A stretch of 64,000 bases of DNA from Gelidibacter pelagius (lineage in GTDB: Bacteria; Bacteroidota; Bacteroidia; Flavobacteriales; Flavobacteriaceae). Positions 12,775 through 31,979 of this stretch are shown one piece after another. The first letter of the stretch is position 1, and each line of letters begins with the position of its first letter. The stretch covers positions 1 to 64,000 of the forward strand of contig NZ_JAGEVG010000012.1 in assembly GCF_017581925.1 (NCBI RefSeq), read 5' to 3'. The notes beneath the pieces are model-generated. The model was not told where the DNA came from, searched no databases, and worked only from the letters and a program-made list of their open reading frames with translations. The position numbers were made by a program, and so were the translations under genes.

Positions 12775-12837
12775 GGACAAAAACGTCCGATATATGACAA
12801 AAGTCATATTTTGTACTGTTAAATACTAATAACTTTG
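12775..12837 (+). promoter_or_regulatory. Composite NsrR-like + FNR-like promoter of nirK
   Basis: GGACAAAAACGTCC (12775-12788) is a palindrome shared with three other promoters here. Five bases later comes ATGACAAAAGTCAT (12794-12807), a perfect FNR-like inverted repeat. Exactly 22 bp further is TAACTTTG (12830-12837), the -7 box, with a TTG at 12811. The FNR-like box would be centred near -43 and the upstream palindrome near -62. Confidence 0.8.
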
Positions 12838-12863
12838 AACCATAAACCAATTATAACCACACT

Positions 12864-14309
12864 ATGAAATCAAAACTAAAATTTACAGTATTAATTGCAA
12901 CAGTATTTTTATTTAGCTGTTTCCAAGAAAAAAAAGAAAAATACACGGCCGCTGAGGACATCCCGGTGAGTCTTGAAATGATTGCGGAATTGACCGCACC
13001 GCCACACGTACCAAAACCTGTGGGCAAGCGCAAAGCAAAAAAGCTTATTGTAAAAATGGAGATCCTCGAAGCCGAAGGTGAAATTTCAAATGGGGTACGT
13101 TATGTATTCTGGACTTTTGGAGGTTCAGTTCCAGGAAGTTTTATCAGAGCTCGTGTTGGAGATGAAATCGAATTCCATTTACAAAACCACCCAGACAACA
13201 AACTACCTCACAACATTGATTTACATGCGGTGAATGGTCCAGGTGGAGGTGCAGAGTCTTCTTTTGTGGCTCCAGGTCACGAAAAAGTGTTTTCCTTTAA
13301 GGTATTGGCTCCTGGTTTGTACGTTTACCATTGTGCAACAGCTCCTGTAGGGATGCATATTGCCAACGGTATGTATGGTCTTATTTTGATAGAGCCTGAA
13401 GGTGGTTTGCCTCCAGTAGATAAAGAGTACTACGTCATGCAGGGCGATTTCTACACTGCGGGTCCTAACGGCGAACGTGGGTTGCAACCTTTTGACATGC
13501 AGAAAGCAGTTGATGAAAAAGCGGATTATGTGGTCTTTAATGGAAAAGTAGGTGCGTTGACTGGTGATGGAGCATTAACCGCTAAAGTAGGGGAGACCGT
13601 AAGACTTTTTGTGGGGAATGGAGGCCCTGGATTAGTGTCATCGTTCCATGTCATTGGAGAAATATTTGACAGGGTAACCGTTGAAGGAGGAAGTCTTATC
13701 AATGAGAATGTCCAAACAACGTTGATTCCTGCCGGCGGGGCAGCTATGATAGAATTCAAAGTAGATGTTCCAGGATCGTATGTTTTGGTTGACCACTCTA
13801 TTTTTAGAGCGTTCAATAAAGGTGCTTTAGGATTGTTGAATGTGACTGGTGAAGAAAACGAAAAAATATACTCTGGAGAGCAGATGGATAATATTTACCT
13901 TCCAGAAGGTCCAGGTATCCAAAGAATGCCAACAACAAGCGAGATTAAAGAATCTGATGTTCCTGCAAAATCCTTTGAGGAGCAAATGAAGTTCGGAAAA
14001 CAGATTTATGGTCAAACCTGTATTGCTTGTCACCAAGCGGAAGGACAGGGTATTCCAAGCGCATTCCCTCCATTGGCAAAATCTGATTATCTAAATGCCG
14101 ATGTTGACAGAGCTATTGAAGCCGTGCTTTTCGGATTAAGTGGAGAAATTACCGTAAACGGTGAGAAGTACAACAGTATTATGACCGCACAAATGATTTC
14201 ACAAGAAGAAGTTGCCAACGTAATGACCTATGTTTATAATAGCTGGGGCAATAATAAAACGGTGGTGACAACTGAGATGGTGAAGAAAGTGAAAGAAAAA
14301 AATAAGTAG
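12864..14309 (+). CDS. nirK: Copper nitrite reductase fused to cytochrome c
   Basis: A 481-residue copper-containing nitrite reductase that reduces nitrite to nitric oxide. The N-terminus is a lipoprotein signal (VFLFSC). Two cupredoxin domains follow: [14 protein letters not shown] carries type 1/type 2 histidines, and [19 protein letters not shown] carries the type 1 Cys-His-Met ligands and a type 2 histidine. [14 protein letters not shown] supplies the last type 2 histidine. The C-terminal ~110 residues form a class I cytochrome c domain with C386-I-A-C-H390. Such NirK-cytochrome c fusions deliver electrons within one chain. It has its own composite promoter. The next gene is 138 bp away across a repeat. 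Confidence 0.96.
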
Positions 14310-14318
14310 TCGAAATTG

Positions 14319-14420
14319 CCCGCCTGAATGACGGAGTCGGGCAGGAAGTTGAATCCCGATAGCTATCGGGAGAAGTTGAAGTTGAAATGATTTTTTTGAC
14401 AACAGACAACAGACAACCGA
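14319..14420. repeat. Palindromes and heptad repeat after nirK
   Basis: The stem GCCCG/CGGGC (14318-14342) is followed by the perfect palindrome CCCGATAGCTATCGGG (14355-14370). Then come a GAAGTT hexamer tandem and a 7-bp tandem ACAACAG x2 plus a variant (14399-14420). No T-run follows the palindrome, so it is not an obvious terminator. Confidence 0.65.
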
Positions 14421-14447
14421 AATAATAATTTATAAAAACCACAAATC

Positions 14448-15224
14448 ATGCGTACCAAATTCTTCAGATTGTCCTTTGTTTTGATTTTTGTCCACCTATT
14501 TAGTTTTGGGCAATCTGAAGATATGGCACGTATTGATGGCGCCCGATACATTCCGTTATACGGACGGGATTCCACGGTAGTTGAGGTTAAGGACTTTGAT
14601 CTGGATAAGTATCCGGTGACCAATGAACAGTATATGGACTTTGTAAGGAAATTTCCAGAATGGCAGAAATCCAAAGCTAAAAAAATCTTTGCCGATGGGA
14701 TGTACCTCAGAAGTTGGAAGGATGATTTTGAACTCAATGACGACGCCAAGTTAAATAGCCCTGTTACCTATGTGAGTTGGTTTGCAGCTAAGGCTTATTG
14801 CGACTGTATGGGCAAACGTTTACCAACCATGGACGAATGGGAATATGCTGCCATGTCAGATGAAACGTCTAAGGATGCCCGTATCAAGAAATCTTACAAT
14901 GAAAAGATTTTATCCTGGTATGAAGCCCCTCGATCCAACGAAAATCAAATTGGGCAAAACCCAAAAAATTATTGGGGTGTTTCTGACTTACATGGTTTAG
15001 TTTGGGAATGGACCTCAGATTTTAATTCTGTTATGCTCTCGGGTGAATCACGAAAAGATCAAGACGGAGATAATAACTTATTCTGCGGAAGCGCCTCCGT
15101 GGGTGCTACTGATTTAATGAATTACGCAGCGTTCATGCGCTACGCTTTTAGAGGCAGCATCAAGGCCAATTACGCGATAAAGAATCTCGGGTTTAGATGT
15201 GCCAAAGATATTGAAACCCCATAA
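14448..15224 (+). CDS. Formylglycine-generating-enzyme-like (SUMF1) protein
   Basis: A 258-residue exported protein with an FGE/SUMF1-type fold. A signal peptide (LSFVLIFVHLFSFGQ) is followed by family signatures: LDKYPVTNEQYMDFV, SPVTYVSWFAAKAYC, GKRLPTMDEWEYAA, GLVWEWTSDF and the C-terminal GFRCAKD. True sulfatase-activating enzymes have a paired active-site cysteine. I see C-D-C in AYCDCMGKRLP and C in GFRC but cannot confirm the FGE pair, so catalysis is uncertain. It ends 5 bp before the SCO gene, so the two form an operon. Its position between nirK and sco suggests a role in maturing or supporting periplasmic copper enzymes. Confidence 0.85.
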   Translation: MRTKFFRLSFVLIFVHLFSFGQSEDMARIDGARYIPLYGRDSTVVEVKDFDLDKYPVTNEQYMDFVRKFPEWQKSKAKKIFADGMYLRSWKDDFELNDDAKLNSPVTYVSWFAAKAYCDCMGKRLPTMDEWEYAAMSDETSKDARIKKSYNEKILSWYEAPRSNENQIGQNPKNYWGVSDLHGLVWEWTSDFNSVMLSGESRKDQDGDNNLFCGSASVGATDLMNYAAFMRYAFRGSIKANYAIKNLGFRCAKDIETP

Positions 15225-15229
15225 TTATT

Positions 15230-15952
15230 ATGAAAAAAACACTTTTTATACTGTGTAGTATTCTTTTTATAGGATTTACTGCCTGTAAAAACGACAGCTC
15301 AAAATCATCGGATGAAGCCATAGCGTATTACTGCCCAATGGAATGTGAGGGCGATAAAACCTACGATGAGCCTGGCAGTTGCCCTGTTTGTAAAATGGAT
15401 TTGGTACCCATTGAAACGATAAAAGAATCAGAAAAAAGATCAGATGAAATTTCAGACCTTTCAATTTTCAACATAAAATCTACTTGGACTAATCAAAATG
15501 GAGAAGACCTTCAGTTTGAAGATCTTAAAGGTGATGTTTTGGTTACGGTCATGATCTATACCTCTTGTAAAGCAGCTTGCCCACGATTAGTGGCCGATAT
15601 GCGGAATATTGAGGAGCGACTTTCAAAAAGTACTAAAGAAAATGTCAAAATGGTACTGGTCAGTATCGATCCAATTACAGATACGCCTGAACGGCTAAAA
15701 GCCTTTGCAGAAGAAAATGTCATGGATAAACACCCGTGGCTGTTTTTGCGATCTTCAGAGGACAATACCAGAGAATTTGCTGCAGTTGTAGCGGTTAATT
15801 ATATGAAGATTTCACCAATTGACTTTTCACATTCAAACATTATCACCGTTTTTAATGCTGAAGGTGAAATGGTATTTCAGCAAGAAGGTCTTGGGGTTAA
15901 CTCTGATGCCACTGTTCAAAATATAGAAAAAGCGGTTGCATCCATTCAATAG
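15230..15952 (+). CDS. SCO1/SenC copper chaperone with metal-binding domain
   Basis: A 240-residue lipoprotein (lipobox GFTAC). Residues ~30-60 form a small heavy-metal-binding domain with the pattern YYCPMECEGD...GSCPVCKMDL. The remainder is a thioredoxin-fold SCO domain with the copper motif C-K-A-A-C-P and a downstream histidine (SPIDFSHSNII). SCO proteins load copper into CuA centres. Here the likely clients are the CuA site of NosZ or other periplasmic copper proteins, since the locus lies between nirK and nosZ. It starts 5 bp after the SUMF-like gene. Confidence 0.92.
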   Translation: MKKTLFILCSILFIGFTACKNDSSKSSDEAIAYYCPMECEGDKTYDEPGSCPVCKMDLVPIETIKESEKRSDEISDLSIFNIKSTWTNQNGEDLQFEDLKGDVLVTVMIYTSCKAACPRLVADMRNIEERLSKSTKENVKMVLVSIDPITDTPERLKAFAEENVMDKHPWLFLRSSEDNTREFAAVVAVNYMKISPIDFSHSNIITVFNAEGEMVFQQEGLGVNSDATVQNIEKAVASIQ

Positions 15953-16010
15953 GCTAAAAACCATGACTCTTAACAGGTCAAACAAGTATAGGTTCTAATA
16001 AACAAAACTC

Positions 16011-17270
16011 ATGAAAAAACTAATTTTTTTAATGTGCTTCGGCATGTTGAGCCAGACATTTTTTGCCCAAGAATTTGCTATCGATCTCCAATTAAGACCG
16101 CGTGCTGAGTATAGGCATGGCTTCAAAACCTTAGTTCCTGACGCTGCCGATGCTGCGACGTTTATCTCGCAACGTTCGCGACTTAATTTTAACTATGGCA
16201 GCGAAAAACTGAATGCTTATATTTCTTTGCAAAATGTCAGAACTTGGGGAGAGGTCAGCACCTTATCTGCAAGTGATGCAAACGGAACTGCCATCCACGA
16301 AGCTTGGGCATCTTTTAAATTGGATTCTGAATTTTCATTTAAAATGGGACGTCAGGAAATCATTTATGATGATTCGCGAATTTTCGGCAATGTCGATTGG
16401 GCACAGACGGGGAGAAGTCATGATGCGTTTATAGCCACTTACCAACCCAATTCTAAAAACCGATTGGACATTGGTCTTGCACTGAATGAAGAGGATGAAA
16501 CGCTGTTCAAAACCGATTATGATGTCAATAATTACAAGGCATTTCAATATGCATGGTACCATACCAGTTTGGATAATTTAAACTTGAGCCTTTTGGCACT
16601 CAATACAGGGTTTACATTTGATAAAAATGGCAAACAGGAGGTAGATTATAATCAGACACTTGGTGCTTTTGTATCCTTTGGGAAAAATCAATTAAAGGGT
16701 GATGCTTCAGCTTATTTCCAAACTGGAAAAATTGCCGATCGCAGTTTAAGTGCTTATAATTTAGCCGGAAACTTACATTATCAAATCAATTCAGAATTTA
16801 CTTTTGGGCTTGGTGCCGAATTGCTTTCTGGGACCGATATGAACTCAACATCAGATAAGATGAACTCATTTAACCCATTATTCGGTACCAATCATAAATT
16901 CAATGGATGGATGGATTATTTCTATGTGGGAAATCATATCAACTCTGTCGGATTATTGGACATTAGTGTGCCATTAAAATATCAAAAGGAAAAAGTAACA
17001 CTTCAATTGGTACCGCATTTATTTTCATCTGCAGCCACTGTGGTGGACAATTTTGGGAATGAAAAAGACAACTATTTAGGCACTGAAATAGATTTTTCAT
17101 TTGGCTATAAAATTGCCTCTAATATTGATTTCCAGTTGGGATATTCCCACATGTTCGCAACAGAAACCATGGAGGTCTTAAAAGGTGGCAACAGAAACAA
17201 TACCACAAATTGGGCTTGGGCCATGTTTGTGTTCAAACCAAAATTATTCACGCATACAACTAGTAAGTAA
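16011..17270 (+). CDS. Outer-membrane beta-barrel, alginate-export-porin type
   Basis: A 419-residue predicted outer-membrane porin. After a signal peptide (ending QTFFAQ) it starts with LRPRAEYRHGF and alternates short amphipathic strands through to the C-terminal aromatic WAWAMFVFKPK. This resembles the alginate-export porin family (AlgE-like). The signature RSRLNFNYGSEKLNAYISLQ and KMGRQEIIYDDSRIFG support this. It lies 58 bp after sco and ends before a strong terminator, so it closes the nirK block. In this setting it may pass nitrite or other small anions, but that is inference. Confidence 0.85.
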   Translation: MKKLIFLMCFGMLSQTFFAQEFAIDLQLRPRAEYRHGFKTLVPDAADAATFISQRSRLNFNYGSEKLNAYISLQNVRTWGEVSTLSASDANGTAIHEAWASFKLDSEFSFKMGRQEIIYDDSRIFGNVDWAQTGRSHDAFIATYQPNSKNRLDIGLALNEEDETLFKTDYDVNNYKAFQYAWYHTSLDNLNLSLLALNTGFTFDKNGKQEVDYNQTLGAFVSFGKNQLKGDASAYFQTGKIADRSLSAYNLAGNLHYQINSEFTFGLGAELLSGTDMNSTSDKMNSFNPLFGTNHKFNGWMDYFYVGNHINSVGLLDISVPLKYQKEKVTLQLVPHLFSSAATVVDNFGNEKDNYLGTEIDFSFGYKIASNIDFQLGYSHMFATETMEVLKGGNRNNTTNWAWAMFVFKPKLFTHTTSK

Positions 17271-17328
17271 ATCACTGTTTTTATTGGAATTCCGAAGAGA
17301 GGAATTCCGAACAAAATTAGCATAGATC

Positions 17329-17371
17329 ATCCTTCAAGATATCCAATATATGGGTCTTGAAGGATTTTTTG
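17329..17371 (+). terminator. Terminator of nirK-block, after porin gene
   Basis: An 11-bp perfect stem ATCCTTCAAGA/TCTTGAAGGAT with a 15-nt loop is followed by six T. It separates the nirK block from the nos promoter. The rest of 17271-17477 holds only an AATTCCG repeat (17288-17309) and AT-rich DNA. Confidence 0.9.
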
Positions 17372-17477
17372 CGTTTTGCCTATGGCTTCTATAGTTCTGC
17401 TTTTAAGAAGGTTAGTATGGAATGTCTCATAAATGTAAGTTTTATAATCACTTTAGTGCAAATTACCACAGTAAAGA

Positions 17478-17540
17478 GGACAAAATCATCCGAAATATGA
17501 TTATTGTCATGTTTTATAATAGATTATCGACTTAAATTTG
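17478..17540 (+). promoter_or_regulatory. Composite NsrR-like + FNR-like promoter of nos
   Basis: GGACAAAATCATCC (17478-17491) is followed after 5 bp by ATGATTATTGTCAT (17497-17510). TAAATTTG (17533-17540) comes 22 bp later. All three spacings are the same as in the nirK promoter. Confidence 0.8.
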
Positions 17541-17619
17541 TTGTATAAAATCAAAAAGAATAGAACTATCACGTGAAAATAGTTCTGAAATTTTTATCAC
17601 AACTTAAATTTTTAACAAA

Positions 17620-18108
17620 ATGAAAAAAACACTAACAATTTTCACAGTATTAAGTGTAATGCTGTTTATGGGGTGTGGTGATGGAGAAAAAAAGAAAGAT
17701 GATCCATATGCGAAACCAGCACCTACAGAGCAAACTAAAGCTGTATCCAGCGTGCCTGCTTCTCAAAGGGTAGACTTGACCAACAAAGGTATTGGTCCGA
17801 TCAAAAATGTTGAACTTGGTGAAACGATTGATATGGAAATGGCCGCCAAAGGAGAGGAAGTGTACAACATGAACTGTACTGCCTGTCACAAAGTAGACAA
17901 AAAATTCATTGGTCCCGCTCCAAAAGGGATCTTGGAAAGAAGAACTCCAGAATGGGTAATGAATATGATCTTGAACCCTGAGGAAATGACTAAAGATGAT
18001 CCGCTTGCCCATGATCTTTTACTTGAATTTAACGGTTCGCCTATGGCAAACCAACACATGACGGAGGAACAGGCAAGACAGATGGTGGAATATTTTAGAA
18101 CTCTATAA
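17620..18108 (+). CDS. Cytochrome c lipoprotein of the nos cluster
   Basis: A 162-residue monohaem class I cytochrome c with a lipoprotein signal (VMLFMGC). The haem site is CTACH near residues 87-91, and the axial methionine is probably the one in SPMANQHM. A charged, proline-rich linker separates the lipid anchor from the haem domain. It is the first gene after the composite nos promoter. Bacteroidota nos clusters often begin with such a cytochrome, which presumably feeds electrons to NosZ. This role is inferred from position. Confidence 0.92.
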   Translation: MKKTLTIFTVLSVMLFMGCGDGEKKKDDPYAKPAPTEQTKAVSSVPASQRVDLTNKGIGPIKNVELGETIDMEMAAKGEEVYNMNCTACHKVDKKFIGPAPKGILERRTPEWVMNMILNPEEMTKDDPLAHDLLLEFNGSPMANQHMTEEQARQMVEYFRTL

Positions 18109-18176
18109 TATATATACTAACAACCGATCGGCTTTTGAAGGAATTAATTTCTTCTTGATCTAAAAACTAATCTCGT

Positions 18177-18746
18177 ATGAAAACAACTCTTAAAATGCTC
18201 TTTGTTTCATTTACATTACTTCTGTTTGCAGCTTGTAAGAATGAAACAGCCACCGGAACGACAGAAGAGCTTTCCACTCAAAGCGATGTCCAAACAAAAA
18301 ACCAGGGACAGGCATTTATTGAAGATGATGAGTCACAGCCAAATGTTCTGCAAATTGCAATTGGATCCCCTGACCATACCACATTAGTGGCAGCTGTCCA
18401 AGCAGCAGGTTTGGAAAACTCGTTGGTTAACGCCGGACCTCTAATGGTATTTGCACCCACCAATGCCGCCTTTGATGCGTTACCTGCAGGAACGGTAGAG
18501 GACCTTTTGAAACCTGAAAACCAAGAAAAGTTGGCTTTTATCCTTAAGAATCACGTAACACCTGGTAACTACTCAAAGGATTTTTTGAAGAAATTTAAGA
18601 AAGTCGGGCAGGCTAGTGGCGAGGATGCCGCAGTAGAGGTTAAAGGTGAAGAGGTATACGTAGGTGGCGCTAAAATTTTAGCGAGTGTTCCAGCCGGAAA
18701 TGGTATTGTACACGTCGTGGATAAAGTAATATTACCAGCAAACTAA
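18177..18746 (+). CDS. Fasciclin-domain lipoprotein
   Basis: A 189-residue lipoprotein (LLFAAC) with one fasciclin (FAS1) domain. Characteristic motifs are LVAAVQAAGLENSL, GPLMVFAPTNAAFDALP, ILKNHVTPG and GNGIVHVVDKVILP. The segment HTTLVAAVQ starts the domain at about residue 62. FAS1 domains bind other proteins or surfaces. Its conserved place between the cytochrome and nosZ in this cluster suggests an accessory role in nitrous-oxide reduction, but no biochemical function can be read from the sequence. It is 68 bp from the cytochrome gene and 33 bp from nosZ. Confidence 0.92.
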   Translation: MKTTLKMLFVSFTLLLFAACKNETATGTTEELSTQSDVQTKNQGQAFIEDDESQPNVLQIAIGSPDHTTLVAAVQAAGLENSLVNAGPLMVFAPTNAAFDALPAGTVEDLLKPENQEKLAFILKNHVTPGNYSKDFLKKFKKVGQASGEDAAVEVKGEEVYVGGAKILASVPAGNGIVHVVDKVILPAN

Positions 18747-18779
18747 CTATAAATCAATTTAATATAAACAATAAGGACA

Positions 18780-20747
18780 ATGAAAAAATCAATTAATATT
18801 TTATTTTTCTTAGCTATAGCTGCCGGATTGGTTGGCTGTAACAATGGAAATGACAGAAAGTCGGGCAAAGGCCAAGGTGGTCTTGCTACCAATGCAGCAG
18901 AAAGAGTCTATGTTGCTCCCGGTGAGCACGACGAATACTATGCATTTATGTCCGGAGGATTTAGTGGTCAGCTTAGTGTTTATGGCTTGCCATCAGGTCG
19001 TATGCTAAAAGTTCTTCCAGTTTTCTCACAAAATCCTGAAAATGGATATGGTTATACAGAGGAGACCAAACCGATGTTGAACACATCTTTTGGATTCGTG
19101 CCATGGGATGACTCTCACCACCCTGATATTTCACAAACAGATGGAGTGTTGGATGGTCGTTGGATATTTATCAATGGAAACAATACCCCACGTATTGCAC
19201 GTATCGATTTGAAAAACTTTGCAACTGAAGAAATTATTGAAATTCCAAACAGTGCAGGGAACCATAGTTCATCATTTATTACCGAAAACACCGAGTACGT
19301 TGTTGCCGGAACACGTTTTTCTGTGCCAATCCCACAAGAAGATATGCCAATCAATGAATACAAAGGGAACTTTAAAGGATCTCTAACGTTTATTAGCGTT
19401 GATCAAGAAACAGGAAGAATGGGAATTAAATTCCAGTTGATAATGCCTGGATTTAACTATGACCTTTCTCACCCTGGGCGCGATAAAAGTCACGGTTGGT
19501 TCTTCTTTACCACTTATAACACTGAAGAGGCCCACTCACTTTTGGAAGTTAACGCATCACAAAACGATAAAGACTTCATCGCAGCCATTAACTGGAAAAA
19601 GATTGAGGAATATGTGAACAATGGCGGTGGAAAAATGGTTCCTGCCAACTATGCACACAACGTCATGGATGAGCATACCCACACGGCTACCTCTACAATG
19701 TTGAAAGAAGTATTGACCGTAAATCCATTGGACGTTCCTGGAGCTGTTTATTTCTTACCAACTCCAAAATCGCCGCACGGTTGTGACGTAGATCCAACAG
19801 GAGAATATATTATTGGTAACGGAAAACTTTCTGCCGACTTGACAGTGCACAGTTTTACCAAAATGCTTGATGCTATTGAGAACAAGAAATTTGATGGTGA
19901 GGCTTATGGCATTCCAATCTTGAATTTTGAAGACATTCTTGCTGGTGTTGTTAAGCAACCAGGCTTAGGACCATTACATACTGAATTTGATGATAAAGGA
20001 AATGCTTATACCACCTTCTTCATCTCCTCTGAGGTTGTAAAATGGAAAGTTGGAACTTGGGAAGTTTTAGATCGTCAACCAGTATTTTACTCTGTAGGTC
20101 ACGGAATGATTCCTGGAGGAAACTCACGTAAACCGTTTGGTAAATACTTTGTAGCCTTAAATAAGATTACAAAAGACAGATACCTGCCAACCGGCCCAGA
20201 GTTGACTCAATCGGCACAATTGTTTGATATCACAGGTGATAAGATGGAGCTCTTATTGGATTTCCCAACTATTGGTGAACCTCACTATGCTGCTGCCATT
20301 CCTGCGGATATGATTAAGAACAATTCAAGAAAGATCTATAAACTTGCTGAAAACAAGCATCCTTATGCTGCTTTTACTAATTCAGATACTAAAGTCGTTC
20401 GCGAAGGAAAGAATGTTCATATTTATATGAATATGATCCGTAGCCACTTTAACCCTGATAATATTGAAGGTGTAAAAGTAGGAGACAAAGTATTCTTCCA
20501 CATTACAAACCTTGAACAAGACTTTGACGTCCCTCACGGATTTGCGGTAATTGGAGCTAATAATGCAGAAATGCTGATTGTTCCAGGTAAGACAGAGACC
20601 TTGGTTTGGGAACCTAAACAAGTAGGTGTATGGCCGTTCTATTGTACGGACTTCTGTTCTGCGCTTCATCAAGAAATGCAAGGCTATGTCCGCGTATCAC
20701 CAGCAGATTCTGACATTGAGTTGTCTTGGTCTTTAGATGAAGATTAA
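18780..20747 (+). CDS. nosZ: Nitrous-oxide reductase, clade II (Sec-type)
   Basis: A 655-residue enzyme that reduces N2O to N2 in the periplasm. The signal peptide is of Sec/lipoprotein type (GLVGC) with no twin-arginine motif, typical of clade II NosZ. The seven-bladed propeller domain carries CuZ histidines in DDSHHPDIS (about 113-114), HPGRDKSHGW, DEHTHT and KSPHGCDVDP. The C-terminal cupredoxin domain has the CuA site C622-T-D-F-C626-S-A-L-H630-x2-M. Length is normal. It is followed by a strong terminator, so the accessory genes downstream may be expressed less or separately. Confidence 0.97.
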   Translation: MKKSINILFFLAIAAGLVGCNNGNDRKSGKGQGGLATNAAERVYVAPGEHDEYYAFMSGGFSGQLSVYGLPSGRMLKVLPVFSQNPENGYGYTEETKPMLNTSFGFVPWDDSHHPDISQTDGVLDGRWIFINGNNTPRIARIDLKNFATEEIIEIPNSAGNHSSSFITENTEYVVAGTRFSVPIPQEDMPINEYKGNFKGSLTFISVDQETGRMGIKFQLIMPGFNYDLSHPGRDKSHGWFFFTTYNTEEAHSLLEVNASQNDKDFIAAINWKKIEEYVNNGGGKMVPANYAHNVMDEHTHTATSTMLKEVLTVNPLDVPGAVYFLPTPKSPHGCDVDPTGEYIIGNGKLSADLTVHSFTKMLDAIENKKFDGEAYGIPILNFEDILAGVVKQPGLGPLHTEFDDKGNAYTTFFISSEVVKWKVGTWEVLDRQPVFYSVGHGMIPGGNSRKPFGKYFVALNKITKDRYLPTGPELTQSAQLFDITGDKMELLLDFPTIGEPHYAAAIPADMIKNNSRKIYKLAENKHPYAAFTNSDTKVVREGKNVHIYMNMIRSHFNPDNIEGVKVGDKVFFHITNLEQDFDVPHGFAVIGANNAEMLIVPGKTETLVWEPKQVGVWPFYCTDFCSALHQEMQGYVRVSPADSDIELSWSLDED

Positions 20748-20809
20748 ATATAAATAACCAATATTATAAGTTTAGGGAAATTTTGTTTTAGTGTTTATTT
20801 CCCTACTAT

Positions 20810-20843
20810 AAGGCGAGAGTTGAATTATCGCTCTCGCCTTTCT
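20810..20843 (+). terminator. Terminator after nosZ
   Basis: A perfect 10-bp stem AAGGCGAGAG/CTCTCGCCTT with an 11-nt loop is followed by a short T-rich stretch. A weaker GGGAAAT/ATTTCCC stem lies just before it. With its imperfect T-run it may act as a partial terminator or an mRNA stabiliser. Confidence 0.75.
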
Positions 20844-22113: not shown

Positions 22114-22121
22114 AAAAAGGG

Positions 22122-24215: not shown

Positions 24216-24990
24216 AATATTAAAATATAGTTTTTACGATTTAATGCGCAGCCGTTGGAGCTACGTGTATTTTGCATTTTACTTATTACTTGGTGTTGTG
24301 TTGTTGTTTTTAAACAACGACTTGTCCAAAGCGGTCATCACCTTAATGAACGTTATTATTGTTTTGGTGCCTCTAATAGGAACCATTTTTGGCGTCATGT
24401 ACTATTATAATTCCAAGGAATTTACAGAGCTGTTATTGGCACAACCCTTAAAACGATCATCGATTTTCCTGGGTCAGTATCTCGGTGTAGCCATTTCGCT
24501 GTCCATGAGCTTGATTTTAGGATTGGGCATCCCGTTTGTTTTTTACGGTTTGTTTATGTCCAATGCCATTTGGGATTTTTCCTTATTACTTATAACAGGA
24601 ACATTTCTGACCCTCATATTTACAGCTTTGGCCTTTAATATCGCTTTATCCAATGAAAATAGAATTAAAGGTTTTGGTTATGCCATTTTATTATGGTTGT
24701 TCTTAGCCATTATTTATGATGGCATCTTCCTAATGTCACTGATTATTTTTGAAGATTATCCTTTGGACAAACTTTCTTTAATTGGAACCATGTTAAACCC
24801 CATAGATCTATCTCGTACTTTAATCTTGCTTAAGTTGGACATTTCTGCCTTGTTAGGTTATACCGGCGCGGTATTCAAGCAGTTTTTTGGAACCAATTTC
24901 GGATTGATCGTATCTTTTTCGGCATTGACTTTGTGGGTGATTTTACCGGTTTTGAGAATCACCATGAAAGCCAAGAAAAAGGATTTTTAA
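24208..24990 (+). CDS. nosY: NosY ABC transporter permease
   Basis: A 260-residue integral membrane protein with about six helices, of the ABC-2/NosY permease type. The N-terminal motif YSFYDLMRSRWSYVYFAFYLL and the LAQPLKRSSIFLGQYLG loop are typical. It forms the membrane part of the NosDFY complex. It overlaps nosF by 8 bp and ends the nosDFY unit; the next gene has its own FNR-type promoter. Confidence 0.93.
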   Translation: MFKILKYSFYDLMRSRWSYVYFAFYLLLGVVLLFLNNDLSKAVITLMNVIIVLVPLIGTIFGVMYYYNSKEFTELLLAQPLKRSSIFLGQYLGVAISLSMSLILGLGIPFVFYGLFMSNAIWDFSLLLITGTFLTLIFTALAFNIALSNENRIKGFGYAILLWLFLAIIYDGIFLMSLIIFEDYPLDKLSLIGTMLNPIDLSRTLILLKLDISALLGYTGAVFKQFFGTNFGLIVSFSALTLWVILPVLRITMKAKKKDF

Positions 24991-25014
24991 ACTTTTAGTG
25001 ATTGGAATTGGATT

Positions 25015-25058
25015 GTGATAATTATCATATAAAATTTAGAATATGATACTTAACTTTG
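25015..25058 (+). promoter_or_regulatory. FNR-type box and -7 element of the 25063 gene
   Basis: GTGATAATTATCAT (25015-25028) differs from ATGA-N6-TCAT at one base. TAACTTTG (25051-25058) follows after 22 bp, as at hemN, nirK and nos. The start codon at 25063 is only 5 bp after the -7 box, so the transcript would be leaderless or nearly so. Confidence 0.65.
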
Positions 25059-25062
25059 TACC

Positions 25063-25458
25063 ATGATTACTACCATTGCACATAAAATTACAGCCTATGT
25101 TTTGGTGTTTATATTATTTGCACATAATATCAATACTCTAATGATTATAGGTGATTTTTTGGCAAATCAAGCAGTCATCGCAAAAAACCTGTGTATTCAA
25201 AAAGACGACCAACAAGGCTGTAATGGGAAATGTCAATTGACCAAACAGATTGTAGAAAGTACACCAGATTCCAATACCGACTTGCCAGCACAAGAAACAA
25301 GGCGTATGTCCTTGGATGCCTTTTGTTTGTATACAATTCAAGTGGCAGAAACTCAAACGGAGATCTTTTCTGCAACAAAGAACATACCTTTTGGATACAC
25401 ACCGTCCATTCTTCTTCAGTATCAGGATATTGATACCCCACCACCCAACTTTAGTTAA
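25063..25458 (+). CDS. Small cysteine-containing exported protein, unknown
   Basis: A 131-residue protein with an N-terminal membrane/signal segment (ITAYVLVFILFAHNI) and then cysteines in the pattern KNLCIQKDDQQGCNGKCQLTKQI. The rest is polar and proline-rich at the end (DTPPPNFS). I recognise this only as a small Bacteroidota protein often found near copper or TonB-receptor genes. The three cysteines could bind a metal such as copper, but that is inference. It is the first gene of a unit with the YtkA-like lipoprotein and the copper receptor, although a 297-bp gap separates it from the next. It has the FNR-type promoter and may be translated from a leaderless mRNA. Confidence 0.75.
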   Translation: MITTIAHKITAYVLVFILFAHNINTLMIIGDFLANQAVIAKNLCIQKDDQQGCNGKCQLTKQIVESTPDSNTDLPAQETRRMSLDAFCLYTIQVAETQTEIFSATKNIPFGYTPSILLQYQDIDTPPPNFS

Positions 25459-25755
25459 TTTTTTAGGTATAAAAACCTTGTTTTTTCCTTTTCTGGCTTG
25501 TTTTTACACGCGAGCAGGGGACTTTAGAACTTTTTTAAACTTTATCATTAGTGTCCGATAAATGATATAATTAGTTATAAACCTATTCAAAACATAGGAT
25601 GTTACTTGATTTTCAAAATGACTCCTTACTCTTTAGAAACCATTTCTATGGAAATTGATTGGGCAATTTTAGCTGAAACAATATCTAATTGTTAATTAGT
25701 TACAATCAGGTCTTGATTTTATATCGAACAACAATGAAACTTAATACTCAAAAAA

Positions 25756-26604
25756 ATGAAACTAAAATATATCATCCCAATTCTTTTTATCACCTTATTT
25801 ACAGTGTCATGTTCGAGTGATGACGATAATTCAGACACCATCATCAATGAGGTTGAAAATCTTAAAAAAATACAAGAACTGACCAACGCTACACATTCTG
25901 TCGAATTATTCAACACTTCTGGTAAATTTGAAACCGGTTATAATGCAATAACTATCCGAATCAAGGACAATGCCACCAACAATTATGTTGAAAACGCTTC
26001 CATATCTTGGATGCCCGTAATGCAAATGTCCACAATGAAACATTCGTCTCCAAAATCTGATATTACTAAATCTTTGGGTCAGAAAACACTTTATGAGGGA
26101 TTTATTGTCTATCAAATGGCTAATCTCGATGGGTCAGGGTGGTCTTTAAAAGTTGATTATACAATAGACGCCATTAATTATTCTGTCCATTCAGATATTA
26201 CCGTGATGCAAAGCGAGTATCAAAACGTGACCAGTTTTATGGGTGCCGATGACAAACGCTATATCATTGCTATGATAGAGCCAAGATCTCCTAAAATAGC
26301 TATTAACAAGTTGAAATTGGGTTTGTTTCAAATGGAAAGCATGATGTCATTTCCAGTTGTTGCAGATTATCAAATAACCTTGGATCCACGCATGCCAGGA
26401 ATGGGAAATCACAGTTCACCTAACAATACCGATTTGAACTATAATTTGGCAGAGAAAATGTATGAGGGGAATTTGTCCTTAACCATGACTGGCTATTGGG
26501 TACTCAATCTAAAGTTGTTGAATGATTTTGATGAGGTTTTGAAAGGTGAAAATGTCACCGAAGAACATCCGAAGAGTTCCCTTTATTTGGAGCTTGAATT
26601 TTAA
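25756..26604 (+). CDS. YtkA-like (FixH-type fold) lipoprotein
   Basis: A 282-residue lipoprotein (LFTVSC) with a YtkA-like Ig domain. The signature WMPVMQMSTMKHSSP, with methionines and a histidine, is typical of periplasmic YtkA-like/copper-linked domains. A second similar module seems to be present at residues ~190-282, with RMPGMGNHSSPNNTDL. The methionine-rich segments MPVMQMSTMKH and MPGMGNH are plausible Cu(I) sites. It lies directly ahead of the copper receptor, with 135 bp between them. Together with the receptor it probably handles copper uptake for nos and the oxidases. Confidence 0.85.
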   Translation: MKLKYIIPILFITLFTVSCSSDDDNSDTIINEVENLKKIQELTNATHSVELFNTSGKFETGYNAITIRIKDNATNNYVENASISWMPVMQMSTMKHSSPKSDITKSLGQKTLYEGFIVYQMANLDGSGWSLKVDYTIDAINYSVHSDITVMQSEYQNVTSFMGADDKRYIIAMIEPRSPKIAINKLKLGLFQMESMMSFPVVADYQITLDPRMPGMGNHSSPNNTDLNYNLAEKMYEGNLSLTMTGYWVLNLKLLNDFDEVLKGENVTEEHPKSSLYLELEF

Positions 26605-26650
26605 CCCATCCTTTTTTACAAATTTTACAAAGCTATCTGAACACATCGTT

Positions 26651-26710
26651 CTGTCAGGTTGAGCGCAGTCGAAATCAAATTGAACTTTTCGACTCTTCTC
26701 ATTCTGACAG
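26651..26710. repeat. Palindromic flavobacterial intergenic repeat
   Basis: Outer arms CTGTCAG (26651-26657)/CTGACAG (26704-26710) and inner arms AGTCGAAA (26667-26674)/TTTCGACT (26687-26694) form an imperfect 60-bp palindrome. The phrase GTCAGGTTGAGCGCAGTCGA resembles a repeat I recall as abundant in Flavobacteriaceae. It lies just upstream of the TonB receptor start. Confidence 0.75.
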
Positions 26711-26739
26711 AAAGGATAGTTTTTATAACCACTACGACA

Positions 26740-28737
26740 ATGAAAAAGCTCATAACAGCTGTGATTTGGATGTTTTGTGGCGGATTTATCTTCGCTCAAG
26801 AATCCCATGACACTAAAAAAGATACGACCAAATTAGATGAAATCACTTTGGTTGGCAGACGTAAATTAAGTAATTATCGACAAGAAAAAACCTTATCGAG
26901 TATTGATGATTATTTAGAAAAATCGAATAAAATTACTATGATCAAGCGTGGCAATTACGCTTGGGAACCCGCCATGAACAATATGAACAGCGAGCGGTTA
27001 AACGTGACTATTGATGGTATGCAGATATTTGGGGCCTGTACTGATAAAATGGATCCCATTACCTCTTATGTTGATGTATCCAATTTGCAGAAAGTAAGCA
27101 TCGGCTCAGGACAATCAGGATCTGAAAATGGGCATACTATCGGAGGAGGTATCGATTTGCAGTTACCAAATTCTAAATTCCAAGGTTCCGGATTAAAAAC
27201 AAGTGTCGATCTGGGCTATGAAACCAATGGCAACTATAGAACGGGTGGTTTGGATCTGGAATATTCTGGTGCTATATTCTATCTCAATGCTGATGGCATC
27301 TATCGTAAGTCAGATAATTACGATGCAGGAAATAATGAGGAAGTGCTGTATTCGCAATTTCAAAAATATAATATTTCGCTGCAAAGTGGCTATAAATTGA
27401 ATGAGCATCACACATTAGAGGCAGCCGTCATTTATGACAAGGCAACTGATGTCGGATATCCTGCACTGACTATGGACGTTTCGCTTGCCGAAGCACTGAT
27501 TACTTCAGTAACGCATAAATATGAAAATGATTCGACCTTTATTCAGTCTTTGGAGTCTAAGCTTTATTACAACACCATCACTCATGTAATGGACGATTCC
27601 AAACGTCCAGATGTGCCTATTCGCATGGACATGCCTGGATGGAGTGATACTTATGGGTTTTATAGTAAAGCGTCTATGCAGGTGAGCAAACACGCACTTG
27701 AAGTCAATCTCAATGGGTTTTACAACCGCTCCTGGGCAGAAATGACTATGTATCCCAACGATCTCAATCAATCTGCTATGTTTATGTACACATGGCCAGA
27801 TATTCGAACCTTGTATTCAGGTATTTACGCTAAAGATACTTATGCTATTAATGATCATACTTCTTTATCAGCAGCCTTGAGGGTCGGATTTCATCAAAAT
27901 GAGATTGCCAAAGAAACCGGCTTGGAAAGTCTTCAAATATTCTATCCGGAAATTGGAGCTCTAAAAAACAGAGCCTTGTCCAGTTTTACAACCAATTACC
28001 TATATAAAAAAGAGCATTATGATGTGTCTTTTGGAGCAGGTTATGGTGAAAGAGCACCATCAGTCAGCGAAGGTTATGGGTTTTTCCTCTTCAATAGTTT
28101 TGACAACTATGATTATATAGGCAATCCGACCTTAAATAACGAAAAGTCTATTGAAGCCAATTTTAAAGCGAATTACCACGAGAATAATTTTCATATAGGA
28201 TTGGAGACCTCTTATTTTTATATCATGGATTATATCATTGGAAATATAGATGAAAGCTTGAGTGCAATGACTATTGGTGCTGATGGTGTAAGAGTATACG
28301 ATGCGCTTTCAAATGCCAAAATATTTAATGTGTATTTGAATTCATCTTACAAGCTTTCAAATTCATTTTCAGTAAATGGAACTGTGGGCTACAATTATGG
28401 AAGTGGTAGCAATGGCGAGAACCTACCTTTGATAAAACCCTTTTCCTATTTGGCGGAAGTGAACTATTCAATTCCAAAATTTAACGCGGCGTTACAATTG
28501 GAAGGTAATGGCAATCAAACCCGATATAGCAGTTATTATGGCGAAGATGAAACGCCATCATACGCGACTTTAAACTTAAATTTAGGCAATGAATTTAATC
28601 TCAAGACCAATAAGGTGGTCTTGAAATATGGGATAGAAAATATTTTGGACACTAATTATTCAACTTATGCCGACTGGAATAATATTCCACGACAAGGCCG
28701 AAATTTTTATATAAATATGTCTTATGTAATCTATTAG
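26740..28737 (+). CDS. TonB-dependent copper receptor, NosA/OprC-like
   Basis: A 665-residue outer-membrane receptor with a signal peptide (ending IFAQ), an N-terminal plug domain and a 22-strand-like barrel ending in an aromatic C-terminal strand. In the plug, NVTIDGMQIFGACTDKMDP matches the copper-binding segment of OprC/NosA receptors, which have Cys and Met in C-x3-MDP. The plug also contains SGSENGHTIGGGIDLQL. NosA imports copper for N2O reductase, and the position directly after nosY supports this. The ATG at 26740 is chosen; earlier in-frame codons fall inside the palindromic repeat. It ends 1 bp from the converging hemerythrin gene. Confidence 0.9.
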   Translation: MKKLITAVIWMFCGGFIFAQESHDTKKDTTKLDEITLVGRRKLSNYRQEKTLSSIDDYLEKSNKITMIKRGNYAWEPAMNNMNSERLNVTIDGMQIFGACTDKMDPITSYVDVSNLQKVSIGSGQSGSENGHTIGGGIDLQLPNSKFQGSGLKTSVDLGYETNGNYRTGGLDLEYSGAIFYLNADGIYRKSDNYDAGNNEEVLYSQFQKYNISLQSGYKLNEHHTLEAAVIYDKATDVGYPALTMDVSLAEALITSVTHKYENDSTFIQSLESKLYYNTITHVMDDSKRPDVPIRMDMPGWSDTYGFYSKASMQVSKHALEVNLNGFYNRSWAEMTMYPNDLNQSAMFMYTWPDIRTLYSGIYAKDTYAINDHTSLSAALRVGFHQNEIAKETGLESLQIFYPEIGALKNRALSSFTTNYLYKKEHYDVSFGAGYGERAPSVSEGYGFFLFNSFDNYDYIGNPTLNNEKSIEANFKANYHENNFHIGLETSYFYIMDYIIGNIDESLSAMTIGADGVRVYDALSNAKIFNVYLNSSYKLSNSFSVNGTVGYNYGSGSNGENLPLIKPFSYLAEVNYSIPKFNAALQLEGNGNQTRYSSYYGEDETPSYATLNLNLGNEFNLKTNKVVLKYGIENILDTNYSTYADWNNIPRQGRNFYINMSYVIY

Positions 28738-28738
28738 A

Positions 28739-29200
28739 TCAGCGCCAGAACTCATCACTCACATTGTCTACAAAGCGTTCGTCATGATGAATGTCTTCAA
28801 TGAGTGCCAATTGTGCTTCTGTAGCGTTCTTTTGGATTTCGGGAAAAAGTATACGTTCTTCAAATCGGATGTGCTGCTCTAATTCCTCTTCAATTTTATG
28901 AAGGGACTTTTCAATATCCTTTTCGTCATTGAAGAGGCGTTTTAGGCGTCTGTGCTCAGCCAAGGCACGTTTTACCAATTCATTGTCTGCTTTTAAAAGC
29001 GGGAAGATATGGGCTTCTTCAAGTTCAAAATGTGGAATCAGTTCATTTTCAAAAAACCAATCGGCGTAGGTTTTAATGCGCTCAATTTCGATGTTTTTGC
29101 TGAATCCACTTCTGATTTTCCAAGAAAGCAATAAACCATGATGGTGCTCTCTGCTGAAAGGTTGAAGTGCTTTATGTCGTTTTAACGGTTTTTGTTTCAT
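28739..29200 (-). CDS. Hemerythrin-domain protein
   Basis: A 153-residue cytoplasmic four-helix protein with a hemerythrin-like di-iron site. Ligands are plausible in FSREHHHGLLLSW, IPHFELEEAHIFP, LAEHRRLKR and HIRFEERILFPEI. Such proteins bind O2 or NO or act in iron-sulfur repair. It overlaps the upstream membrane-protein gene by 29 bp, so the two are translated together. It lies beside Ric, a second di-iron hemerythrin protein. The function is probably NO or oxygen sensing/protection, inferred from context. Confidence 0.88.
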   Translation of the reverse strand: MKQKPLKRHKALQPFSREHHHGLLLSWKIRSGFSKNIEIERIKTYADWFFENELIPHFELEEAHIFPLLKADNELVKRALAEHRRLKRLFNDEKDIEKSLHKIEEELEQHIRFEERILFPEIQKNATEAQLALIEDIHHDERFVDNVSDEFWR

Positions 29201-30398
29201 GATTGATAATATTTAAGATAAAAATTAAAATGCCTAAGGGCAAAAGAATACTGCTAATGAAAAGCAATAAATAATAGTTGGGTAACATCCCAAGGGCAAA
29301 ATAGTAAAAAAGACCCTGAATAAGCAATAAAACCTCAGTTGCAATGAATCCGATGATGAAACAATAGATTCCAAAGGTCAAAGGCTTGCTTTTAATGGAA
29401 ATCAGGTTTGAGCTCAAAAGGAATGCAAACAAAAATCCTGTGATGACTCCTAACATCATCAAATGGATAAAACCAATCACAAAATTGTGATACTGGTAGG
29501 CCATTCTCGAGATGGTGGGCACGATAGAACTGGTTTGTAGAGCTATTTTCATGATAAAAGAAATGAGTGCCAAAGCATACATCGATTTGATCAGTGTTGG
29601 TGTCTTCCTCCAGAATTCCTGCCAGTGTGGACGCAGCAATAAGATAAAGTAATATCCTGATAAAAGCTGTAATAATGCACCCAGTCCATTAATCCATAAA
29701 AGTATAGAATGAAAGGCATACCAACTAACAGGTAAGGCAAAGGTCAGTACGGTGGAGGCAATAAGTGTGATGAAAAAACGCTGAAAAAGCGGGGTGCCTT
29801 TTATATTAAATTGATGTAGGAATACCGCTAAAACAGCAAACATAAACCAACCATTAAACTGAAAATGCAGGAAAAACTGAATAGCTATTTGAAAAAATGC
29901 AGATTCTATCCCCAATTTTGCAGCCGCTGGACCTAAGCACCAAATACCAATAGTAGAAATGAACATAAAAACTAATGAAGCCTTCAGCAGTAATTGTATA
30001 GGTTTTGAATGGATTTTGTGATGTTTCCATATCAATCGGATAAACAGGTAGCTACATATAATATGCAAGGTTGAAAAACTAATGGAGATGGCAGCGTATC
30101 CTTGAAATGGAAAACTGACCATCATGCCAATCACGGCAATCTCCGTGAGCCAAAATAGACGGTTATAAACCGGTTTCTTATCTGGGATAAAATGATGGAT
30201 TAGCAGCACATATAACATGAGATATACCCAACCCAACATTGCGCCATGCGAATGGGCATGCATCAGGCTCCTAAATTCAAAGGGTAGGGGTTTTACAAAT
30301 TCATGAAGGGGAATCACAAAAACATACCGTAACATCAAACCCATTATGGCTGCGACCAAAAAGTTTATGAGACATACGATAACGAGTTTTTTCTGCAT
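29172..30398 (-). CDS. Polytopic membrane protein, oxidase-subunit-I-like
   Basis: A 408-residue protein with about 12 membrane helices. It has histidine motifs RSLMHAHSHGAMLGW in helix 2, HFQFNGWFM in the middle and FIHLMMLGVITGF near the end. These resemble haem-binding helices of haem-copper oxidase subunit I. I see no H-x3-YH or HH pair for a CuB site, so it is unlikely to be a full oxidase or NO reductase on its own. It overlaps the hemerythrin gene by 29 bp and sits next to ric and the NsrR-like regulator, which points to NO handling. I call the family only tentatively. Confidence 0.7.
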   Translation of the reverse strand: MQKKLVIVCLINFLVAAIMGLMLRYVFVIPLHEFVKPLPFEFRSLMHAHSHGAMLGWVYLMLYVLLIHHFIPDKKPVYNRLFWLTEIAVIGMMVSFPFQGYAAISISFSTLHIICSYLFIRLIWKHHKIHSKPIQLLLKASLVFMFISTIGIWCLGPAAAKLGIESAFFQIAIQFFLHFQFNGWFMFAVLAVFLHQFNIKGTPLFQRFFITLIASTVLTFALPVSWYAFHSILLWINGLGALLQLLSGYYFILLLRPHWQEFWRKTPTLIKSMYALALISFIMKIALQTSSIVPTISRMAYQYHNFVIGFIHLMMLGVITGFLFAFLLSSNLISIKSKPLTFGIYCFIIGFIATEVLLLIQGLFYYFALGMLPNYYLLLFISSILLPLGILIFILNIINHETKTVKTT

Positions 30399-30650
30399 TT
30401 AAGAGGTTTTCATCATTCAATAAATGAATCCACTATGATAGGATTTTTTTTGATAAATAAAGAATTTATAAAGAAGAATTCTTTAGTCATTCTGTATAGT
30501 GTCAGGCTATGATGTTTCAAAATTAAATAGAAAAACACTCCCTAATCGTATCTTTTATTGCGGTACTTGAATTTCTTCAAAGAAGCATACAAATACCACA
30601 GCAGGCCAAGAAACGAAAAAGAAGTGTCTTATCAACAATTAAAACCAAAA

Positions 30651-31382
30651 CTAATTGAGAGTTTGTTCCAGCGCAATTGCTTTAGGGAACAATATATTAT
30701 TTTCTAAATGTATATGTAGATGTAAATCCTTTTCAAATTCATCCAACATGGCAAAGGTTACTTTGTACGTGTTGCAGGCATCCGCTGGTGGCGTATAATT
30801 ATTTGTCAGTTCCACGATTTTTCTGAAGCGATCACCTTCAAGTTCATGATCATGTTTCATCAAGGCAATTGGATTTTCTACAGTTGTAAATTGTGGCGAT
30901 TCAATTTTAGTACCTTCCATTTGGGCCTTCACCATACGCTTTATAAAAGGGAAGAGAATAAGTTCTTCTTTTTTCATGTGAGATGCCATCTCTTTGGCAC
31001 AGCCGATAAAAAGTGTTGTAATTTCTAAAAGTTCAGGATGTCTTTGTCCGTGTACTTTACAAAGTTTATCTAAAAATTGACGTAATATTGGTGTTTTTTC
31101 TTCAACATATCGGTGGTGTTTCTTTTCGATATATTCTGCCAACAAATCCAATGGCCATGATTTATAGTCAATAGATTGTTGGTTGTTTGAAATTTGAATT
31201 TCCAGGAGTTTACCGAGTAATTCCTCGACCTCGATATTATTTTTTTTGCATACCTCTTCAACAGTTCTATCACCTTTACAGCAAAAGTCGATACCATAGT
31301 TTGAAAATACCGCTGCGGTTCTAAAGTCGTCAGCCACAAACTGACCGATCTGTTTTTGTGCGTCTTTATGTAATGTTTCCAT
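30651..31382 (-). CDS. ric: Ric (ScdA/YtfE) iron-sulfur cluster repair protein
   Basis: A 243-residue di-iron repair protein. The N-terminal ScdA/DUF542 domain carries the cysteines of FSNYGIDFCCKGDRTVEEVC, and the C-terminal hemerythrin domain has histidines in KKHHRYV, GQRHPEL, MASHMKKEELILFPF, MKHDHELEGDRF and LHLHIHLENNILFP. Ric repairs iron-sulfur clusters damaged by NO or oxidants. The ATG at 31382 is preferred to a TTG at 31409. The GGATAGTTTTATCC operator-like palindrome lies between this gene and rrf2, supporting NO-responsive control. The 252-bp gap downstream to the membrane-protein gene holds nothing I can name. Confidence 0.94.
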   Translation of the reverse strand: METLHKDAQKQIGQFVADDFRTAAVFSNYGIDFCCKGDRTVEEVCKKNNIEVEELLGKLLEIQISNNQQSIDYKSWPLDLLAEYIEKKHHRYVEEKTPILRQFLDKLCKVHGQRHPELLEITTLFIGCAKEMASHMKKEELILFPFIKRMVKAQMEGTKIESPQFTTVENPIALMKHDHELEGDRFRKIVELTNNYTPPADACNTYKVTFAMLDEFEKDLHLHIHLENNILFPKAIALEQTLN

Positions 31383-31450
31383 AAATTTCTTCCCATCCTC
31401 TATAAACAAGGATTTTTTCGGGTGCTTATTAATTAGACAATTATTATTTC

Positions 31451-31464
31451 GGATAGTTTTATCC
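31451..31464. promoter_or_regulatory. NsrR-like operator between rrf2 and ric
   Basis: GGATAGTTTTATCC, read on the minus strand as GGATAAAACTATCC, fits the consensus GGAyAAAAnyrTCC. It is 68 bp upstream of the ric ATG. A matching -7 box was not identified. Confidence 0.65.
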
Positions 31465-31487
31465 TATTTATATATAAATTTTTTTTT

Positions 31488-31922
31488 TTAAATTTTTAAA
31501 AATGAAGCCCCAGATTTGATGTCTAAAGCCAGTTGCTCAAGATTAGTGCTTTCCAACATTAGTTTTAACTCGTTGCGTATCACTTTAAATTGGTCGTGGA
31601 CAGGGCATGGGTGATTCTCATCACAAACGTTCAAACCCAAACCACAACCGTGATAAATGCTGTCGCCGTCAATGGAATTTACAATTTGAGACAGTTTGAT
31701 TGAGGAAATCTCTTCTTTCGGAATTTCGAATCCACCATGAGCACCTTTTACTGAATTGATAATGTCGTTCCTTACTAAGGCTTGAAGTATTTTTGCAGTA
31801 AACGCTTCTGGGGAATCGATTTCTTTAGCAATCTCCTTTAAACTGACCCGATTGCCATCATAAGAGTTCAAGGCTATATAGATAGATGCTTTAATACCGT
31901 ATTCGCAAGCTTTTGAAAACAT
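31488..31922 (-). CDS. Rrf2-family regulator, NsrR-like
   Basis: A 144-residue Rrf2-family DNA-binding regulator. The winged-helix region starts MFSKACEYGIKASIYIA and runs through SLKEIAKEIDSPEAFTAKILQALV, which includes the recognition helix. The iron-sulfur motif is C-x6-C-x5-C in YHGCGLGLNVCDENHPCP, as in NsrR/IscR-type sensors. NsrR responds to NO through its cluster. The gene is immediately upstream of ric. Its own promoter has a GGACAAAATTATCC palindrome, and the same palindrome occurs at ric, nirK and nos. IscR- or RsrR-like function is the alternative. Confidence 0.9.
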   Translation of the reverse strand: MFSKACEYGIKASIYIALNSYDGNRVSLKEIAKEIDSPEAFTAKILQALVRNDIINSVKGAHGGFEIPKEEISSIKLSQIVNSIDGDSIYHGCGLGLNVCDENHPCPVHDQFKVIRNELKLMLESTNLEQLALDIKSGASFLKI

Positions 31923-31941
31923 ATTGGGTTTTTAATTTAAA

Positions 31942-31979
31942 CAAATATACATTAAAATTTAATTCGGACAAAATTATCC
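31942..31979 (-). promoter_or_regulatory. rrf2 promoter with NsrR-like operator
   Basis: On the minus strand TATATTTG (31942-31949) is a -7 box. The palindrome GGACAAAATTATCC (31966-31979) lies 16 bp upstream, overlapping the -33 region. Bound there, the regulator would block polymerase, which fits autorepression. Confidence 0.75.

Follow-up and report, generated by a model that had tools for sequence, protein, structure and literature searches.

A putative 26-bp operator linked to an Rrf2-family regulator at nitric oxide defence and denitrification genes of Gelidibacter pelagius

Which protein controls denitrification and nitric oxide (NO) defence in Gelidibacter pelagius, and through which DNA site? 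The question is raised by a 64,000-nucleotide stretch of contig NZ_JAGEVG010000012.1 (the window; the whole genome is 4.49 Mb), in which an earlier note described four copies of a 14-base-pair (bp) motif, at an rrf2 regulator gene, its neighbour ric, nirK and the nos genes, and took them for NsrR-type operators. We conclude, with a probability of roughly 0.7, that the Rrf2 protein is an autoregulated, NO-relieved repressor that acts like NsrR and is gated with anaerobic activation at nos and nirK. The passages of PMC6264515 that touch on nosZ regulation describe it as poorly known outside the Proteobacteria, and we found nosZ in 71 of the 149 family genomes searched; the operator, its target list and its fixed composite with an FNR-like box make the regulation of nitrous oxide (N2O) consumption in Flavobacteriaceae directly testable.

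All four 14-mers were confirmed in position and strand, two of them at rrf2 and ric and the other two at nirK and nos, as the earlier note had said (shuffled sequences held 0.06 on average, and none of 100 reached four). The copies are not perfect palindromes, with four of seven base pairs formed at nirK and nos and five of seven at rrf2 and ric (counted by hand). Conservation extends over a 26-bp inverted repeat, approximately TAATTCGGAYAAATTTRTCCGAATTA, with the 14-mer as its core. It lies in the rrf2 promoter (31960–31985, minus strand; core 31966–31979), between rrf2 and ric (31445–31470, minus; core 31451–31464), upstream of nirK (12769–12794, plus; core 12775–12788) and upstream of the nos genes (17472–17497, plus; core 17478–17491). 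The genes concerned are rrf2 (31488–31922, minus; 144 residues), ric for the di-iron protein of iron-sulfur (Fe-S) cluster repair (30651–31379, minus; TIGR03652, 233.6 bits against a cut-off of 204.7), nirK for a copper nitrite reductase with a C-terminal cytochrome c domain (12864–14309, plus; TIGR02376, 341 bits; PF00034), and a cytochrome c gene, a fasciclin-domain gene (Pfam) and Sec-dependent nosZ (17620–20747, plus; TIGR04246, 946.4 bits).

To follow the site through the family, the Rrf2 protein was searched against the 149 genomes, 84 of which gave a match at 1e-20. Sixty rrf2 loci were fetched; 57 were counted as orthologs (at least 50% identity), and L111–L113 were dropped (39–44% identity). 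Nearly all upstream regions of the 57 loci carry the inverted repeat at one position. A weight matrix trained on 56 rrf2 sites, the window's included and the ric, nirK and nos sites left outside, found 81 places scoring at least 19 in the 57 loci and none in shuffled copies, most rrf2 sites among the 81 being training sites; the nirK row of locus L057 was not used, since it arose artificially from a gene that starts at the edge of the locus. Conservation of the palindrome in related genomes, on which the earlier note had staked its claim beforehand, was found: of 80 named relatives, 71 carry the site at the rrf2 promoter, against 1 of 1,600 shuffles; these are the best 80 of 588, and the closest is a Gelidibacter with 94% protein identity. 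When sites identical to training ones were dropped, 51 of 60 remained. Relatedness among the genomes was left uncorrected in this and all other counts. Among 471 upstream regions of other open reading frames, 29 score at least 12; to judge by position, most of these probably belong to the gene immediately following rrf2. The rrf2–ric intergenic comparison that the earlier note had asked for gave the operator in 19 of the 24 loci in which ric directly follows rrf2, and in 1 of 10 loci with ric elsewhere.

The placement of the site relative to the promoter is similarly constant. Its centre lies 45–56 bp upstream of the rrf2 start codon in the 71 site-bearing relatives, and TAnnTTTG follows 15–18 bp past the core in 65 of them. 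Bacteroidota promoters have the consensus –33 TTTG / –7 TAnnTTTG, and the operator therefore overlaps the presumed –33 box of rrf2. The same arrangement is seen in the window, where the operator overlaps a presumed –33 TTTG and the presumed –7 element TATATTTG (31942–31949, minus) ends 31 bp from the operator centre. The Flavobacterium loci L359 and L365–L369 have orthologs that are 65–69% identical, yet their rrf2 promoters are without the operator.

The target set in the own genome was read with a blind model (R2) built from 38 rrf2 sites of other genera, with none from this genome or its genus-mate. It returned a cupin gene (E = 4e-5), rrf2 (1e-3), norBC (2e-3) and ric (6e-3), followed by a partial match at C14:12257 (0.10; no site scoring at least 14 with the weight matrix), nirK (0.17) and nos (0.90), so that the six operator sites stand within its top seven. 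A wider model (R1), which included five of the six own sites, returned six places under 0.02, the seventh following at 0.12. The norBC and cupin sites, both strong, lie on another contig. The compact regulon envisaged by the earlier note is borne out by comparison for the predicted operators at the regulator's own promoter, ric, nirK and nos, and norBC and the cupin gene have to be added to it; the nirK and nos sites are weak. These targets make up a set of NO detoxification and denitrification genes of the NsrR kind, which is patchy in relatives (hmp and hcp lay outside the search). The strongest operator of the genome stands at the small cupin gene (L023:5472–5816, own-genome contig C6); a cupin-like gene follows an operator in six other genomes, in three of them after a 2Fe-2S ferredoxin-like gene. 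About 440 bp (L023:9992–10450) separate the norBC operator from norB downstream of it, which implies a long leader.

Across genomes, the predicted operator is linked to the regulator. Blind-model matches with E of at most 0.02 were obtained in 29 of 33 chosen genomes with an ortholog, many of which had supplied training sites for the model, vs 2 of 18 that lack a match at 1e-20, one of these two lying inside a reading frame. In 51 of the 57 loci, rrf2 has a ric, nor, globin, nirK or nos-type gene no more than 7.5 kb away. Thirty further stretches were chosen by hand from the matches, mostly exact-core or model matches, with several genes named by eye. Sites scoring at least 14 occur in 21 of them, at cupin (6, of which 3 behind a ferredoxin-like gene), NO reductase (4), globin (1) and rrf2 (1) genes, and elsewhere (9).

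Next, we considered how the operators are placed relative to the promoters that they would control. In the own genome, the distance from operator centre to the end of the –7 box is 31–32 bp at rrf2, norB and the cupin gene (whose –7 box, TAACTTTA, is one letter off consensus) and 56 bp at nirK as well as nos; the ric promoter has no –7 box that could be recognised. Between operator and –7 box, nos and the own nirK carry an FNR-like inverted repeat, ATATGAYnnnnRTCATAT. The nirK box ATATGACAAAAGTCATAT (12792–12809, plus) precedes the presumed –7 element TAACTTTG (12830–12837, plus), the nos box ATATGATTATTGTCATGT (17495–17512, plus) precedes TAAATTTG (17533–17540, plus), and in both promoters box and operator are 19 bp apart, centre to centre. 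The geometry was read in 30 loci each for nirK and nos, of 36 and 73 places listed. The FNR-like box was present in 28 of the 30 nos loci, its gap to the –7 box being exactly 20 in all 28, and the best operator match within 45 bp stood exactly 19 bp from the box in 23 of the 28 (18 of the 23 scoring at least 12). These spacings suggest, for the nos promoter, an activator site some 42 bp upstream of the start, which is the class II activator position, and next to it an Rrf2 operator centred about 62 bp upstream. The putative operators at nirK and nos are thus halves of a composite with the FNR-like box. At nirK, 16 of the 30 loci have a site: 11 at 16–22 bp downstream of the –7 box, which for a predicted operator is a repressor position, three with the centre 54–56 bp before the end of that box, and two where no –7 box could be recognised. 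The operators fall into three promoter positions, and the idea that they form one class was rejected. At nirK, operator and box stand 19 bp apart in this genome and in L146, and 17 bp apart in L144 of the same genus. At L095:7221–7285, a divergent rrf2–nos intergenic region, two operators flank one FNR-like box.

The two distances, 56 bp at nirK and nos vs 31–32 bp at rrf2, norB and the cupin gene, could also mean that Rrf2 is bifunctional, a repressor at rrf2, ric, norBC and the cupin gene and, at nos and nirK, a partner across the 19-bp junction that aids the FNR-like activator. Its relative IscR is annotated as a dual regulator, and the exact spacings on either side of the nos box likewise speak for this reading; yet spacing may be conserved by common descent without protein contact, the outer operator bases overlap the box, which fits mutual exclusion equally well, the spacing at the same-genus nirK is 17 bp, not 19, and activation would be improbable from a site downstream of the –7 box, as in 11 of the 16 site-bearing nirK loci. 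On balance, this alternative is possible but unlikely. We are similarly doubtful of its most specific form, a fixed-geometry switch in Flavobacteriaceae nos promoters in which an Rrf2 Fe-S sensor with a conserved extra N-terminal cysteine would contact the FNR-like activator, the same protein repressing NO defence and co-activating N2O reduction.

The protein itself belongs to the Rrf2 family (PF02082, 84.2 bits against a cut-off of 30; NCBIfam rrf2_super, TIGR00738, 82.4 against 73.3). It scored below the cut-offs of the NsrR equivalog NF008240 (26.1 bits, cut-off 182), the IscR equivalog TIGR02010 (49.2, cut-off 207.55), RirA (37.3, cut-off 193) and CymR (42.9, cut-off 195), and its identity is 26.5% over 83 residues to E. 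coli NsrR and 27.8% over 79 residues to E. coli IscR. By family score and by operator the predicted regulator is not NsrR, and the sequence does not support the NsrR-type designation of the earlier note. An Rrf2 protein with three cysteines, as described in that note, is supported: C93, C100 and C106 are invariant in 28 of 28 aligned proteins, as are C6 and H109, and E7 is present in 27 of the 28. In alignments, E7 falls opposite Asp8 of E. coli NsrR, and H109 opposite the histidine after the third cysteine of IscR. The residues expected of NsrR, three cysteines and an acidic residue 8, thus have counterparts among the predicted ligands, and the set as a whole is, as far as alignment can tell, a mix of NsrR and IscR features plus an additional cysteine. 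In a 23-protein tree, 2 of 20 inner branches were well supported and the outgroup branches were very long; pairwise identities alone were used. One other Rrf2 gene was found in the own genome, adjoining sulfur-metabolism genes. In some family genomes, a more distant Rrf2 (about 40–44% identity in L111 and L112) adjoins the nosZ cluster; S or K replaces E7 in it, and it may read a variant operator.

The signal could be another one. With the same regulator and operators, Fe-S status, oxygen or another redox cue might be sensed, the NO genes being only part of the output. The histidine two residues past the third cysteine resembles IscR; the best PDB profile matches are 6y45 and 6hsd (named just Rrf2 family regulator), CymR and IscR, with NsrR 5n07 lower (E = 0.001); and in some genera single sites occur at genes that by eye appear to be cysH, nrdD and cytochrome peroxidase. 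Enzymes of NO, nitrite and N2O, and RIC, nevertheless make up most of the neighbours and targets, and position 7 holds an acidic residue, comparable to Asp8 of E. coli NsrR, where IscR has an arginine, so we consider a signal other than NO rather improbable. That a different protein reads the operators and rrf2 is a bystander is very improbable, for although the six Flavobacterium loci retain the ortholog without the promoter site and binding to the operator is a prediction, the sites track rrf2 across genomes and stand at the rrf2 promoter itself, and the other Rrf2 found in the genome adjoins sulfur-metabolism genes.

We therefore return to the NO-relieved repressor. Comparison shows the operator, how it is linked to rrf2, which targets this genome has, where the sites stand in the promoters and how fixed the spacing at nos is; what we infer is that Rrf2 binds the operator, carries an Fe-S cluster, responds to NO and represses, and which protein the FNR-like activator is. 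Rrf2 proteins bind DNA as dimers, and a dimer would occupy the 26-bp inverted repeat, cover the promoter and so repress rrf2, ric, norBC and the cupin gene. NO, or damage caused by it, would act at a cysteine-bound Fe-S cluster and release Rrf2, upon which NO removal and Fe-S repair genes would be turned on. At nos, and in this lineage at nirK, the operator is joined at a fixed 19 bp to the FNR-like activator box about 42 bp before the start, such that both would need two signals, low oxygen via the FNR-like protein and NO via the loss of Rrf2. Denitrification and NO defence of this flavobacterium thus appear to be controlled by a regulator of the Fe-S type with an operator unlike that of NsrR.

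Several results weigh against this account. A genome scan with the 14-mer pattern gave seven matches in 4.49 Mb; five are at candidate target promoters (the four window sites and one upstream of the cupin gene adjoining norBC–globin), but the backward-read control likewise gave seven. Exact-core counts were 57 vs 55 in the backward control in 55 genomes with an ortholog, and 4 vs 10 in 20 genomes without one, which are smaller on average and are those listed out of 65 without a match. Because the backward-read pattern is equally frequent, the 14-mer count carries no proof; the matches at C22:539 and C37:200383, inside open reading frames, were set aside as chance. Chance as the origin of the operator is ruled out by conservation, not by count, and the evidence for the predicted site is its location and conservation. 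The rrf2-promoter site is absent in 9 of the 80 relatives (all six Flavobacterium loci and three others), and since the promoters share ancestry, counts across them are not independent. Of the six sites, the blind model ranks those at nirK and nos lowest, below the partial match at C14:12257, and a centre about 62 bp upstream, as at nos, is an odd location for a repressor. The nirK operator fades with evolutionary distance, being present in 9 of 9 genomes at ortholog identities of at least 70%, 2 of 4 at 60–69%, 3 of 10 at 50–59% and 2 of 7 below that or without an ortholog. In the first loci, sites scoring at least 12 within 300 bp upstream were found at 1 of 7 norB, 0 of 20 globin and 0 of 8 cupin genes, some of which may follow others in operons. 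Finally, 9 of the 30 further stretches contain no site scoring at least 14 with the weight matrix, and 9 of the 21 site-bearing ones have no NO-type neighbour or carry the site in coding sequence.

Beyond these promoters, the exact FNR-like box occurs at five places in the window, namely at nirK, at nos, before hemN (10324–10339), before the cco genes for cbb3 oxidase (38272–38287), and between a copper-ATPase-like gene and a CRP/FNR gene (40877–40892); at up to two mismatches it occurs 63 times vs 45 expected. The hemN, cco and CRP/FNR boxes suggest a low-oxygen regulon in the window. The CRP/FNR-family protein encoded there (40878–41603, plus; PF13545, 55.2 bits), whose gene is overlapped by a box at its 5' end, is a candidate reader of the boxes; in the genome, five CRP/FNR places exceed the cut-off, this one included. 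A gene at 29172–30398 encodes a 408-residue protein rich in hydrophobic stretches and lies near ric in many relatives; Pfam and NCBIfam gave no family match for it, and nnrS is an unsupported working label.

How, then, does this system compare with known ones? In its passages on NsrR, PMC1274295 gives the motif gATGyAT-N5-ATrCATc, from which the motif here differs, as the earlier note had said. The window holds no exact copy of the published motif and 14 matches at up to two mismatches (17.3 expected), none of which overlaps the four operators. The NsrR regulons of Proteobacteria and Gram-positives described there share with the present one an Rrf2 regulator and, in some species, ric (dnrN), norB and nirK as targets, and enterobacterial hcp likewise has an FNR-like site beside an NsrR site; the two passages of that paper that mention Bacteroides concern HcpR. 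Classical NsrR differs in its operator, gATGyAT-N5-ATrCATc instead of TAATTCGGAYAAATTTRTCCGAATTA, and in the place of the FNR-like box, which here is downstream, not upstream, of the Rrf2 site (PMC1274295); the nos genes and the cupin gene are further targets here. Searches with the published NsrR motif or the NsrR equivalog would miss such a set of NsrR-like targets under another operator. The [4Fe-4S] NsrR of Streptomyces coelicolor (5n07; PMC9338935) is alike in its three cysteines, in an acidic residue aligned with position 8 and, counted as a likeness, in an operator of 23 bp vs 26 bp here; it has C93, C99 and C105 in place of C-x6-C-x5-C, and the invariant C6 and H109 are extra in the protein studied here, which matches the 5n07 profile at E = 0.001. 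E. coli IscR shares the Rrf2 family and the histidine two residues past the third cysteine, and differs in an arginine at aligned position 8, which is acidic here, and in its regulon, no Fe-S assembly genes being among the targets found here. In the literature searched, from which subscription papers were mostly absent, we recognised no publication describing this operator. PMC6264515 had earlier noted Rrf2 genes in the vicinity of clade II nosZ in sediment metagenomes; its passages on them do not describe an operator, a regulon or an FNR composite. Rrf2 genes beside clade II nosZ and NsrR-type regulons are therefore already known, and the predicted operator of G. pelagius is different from that of NsrR.

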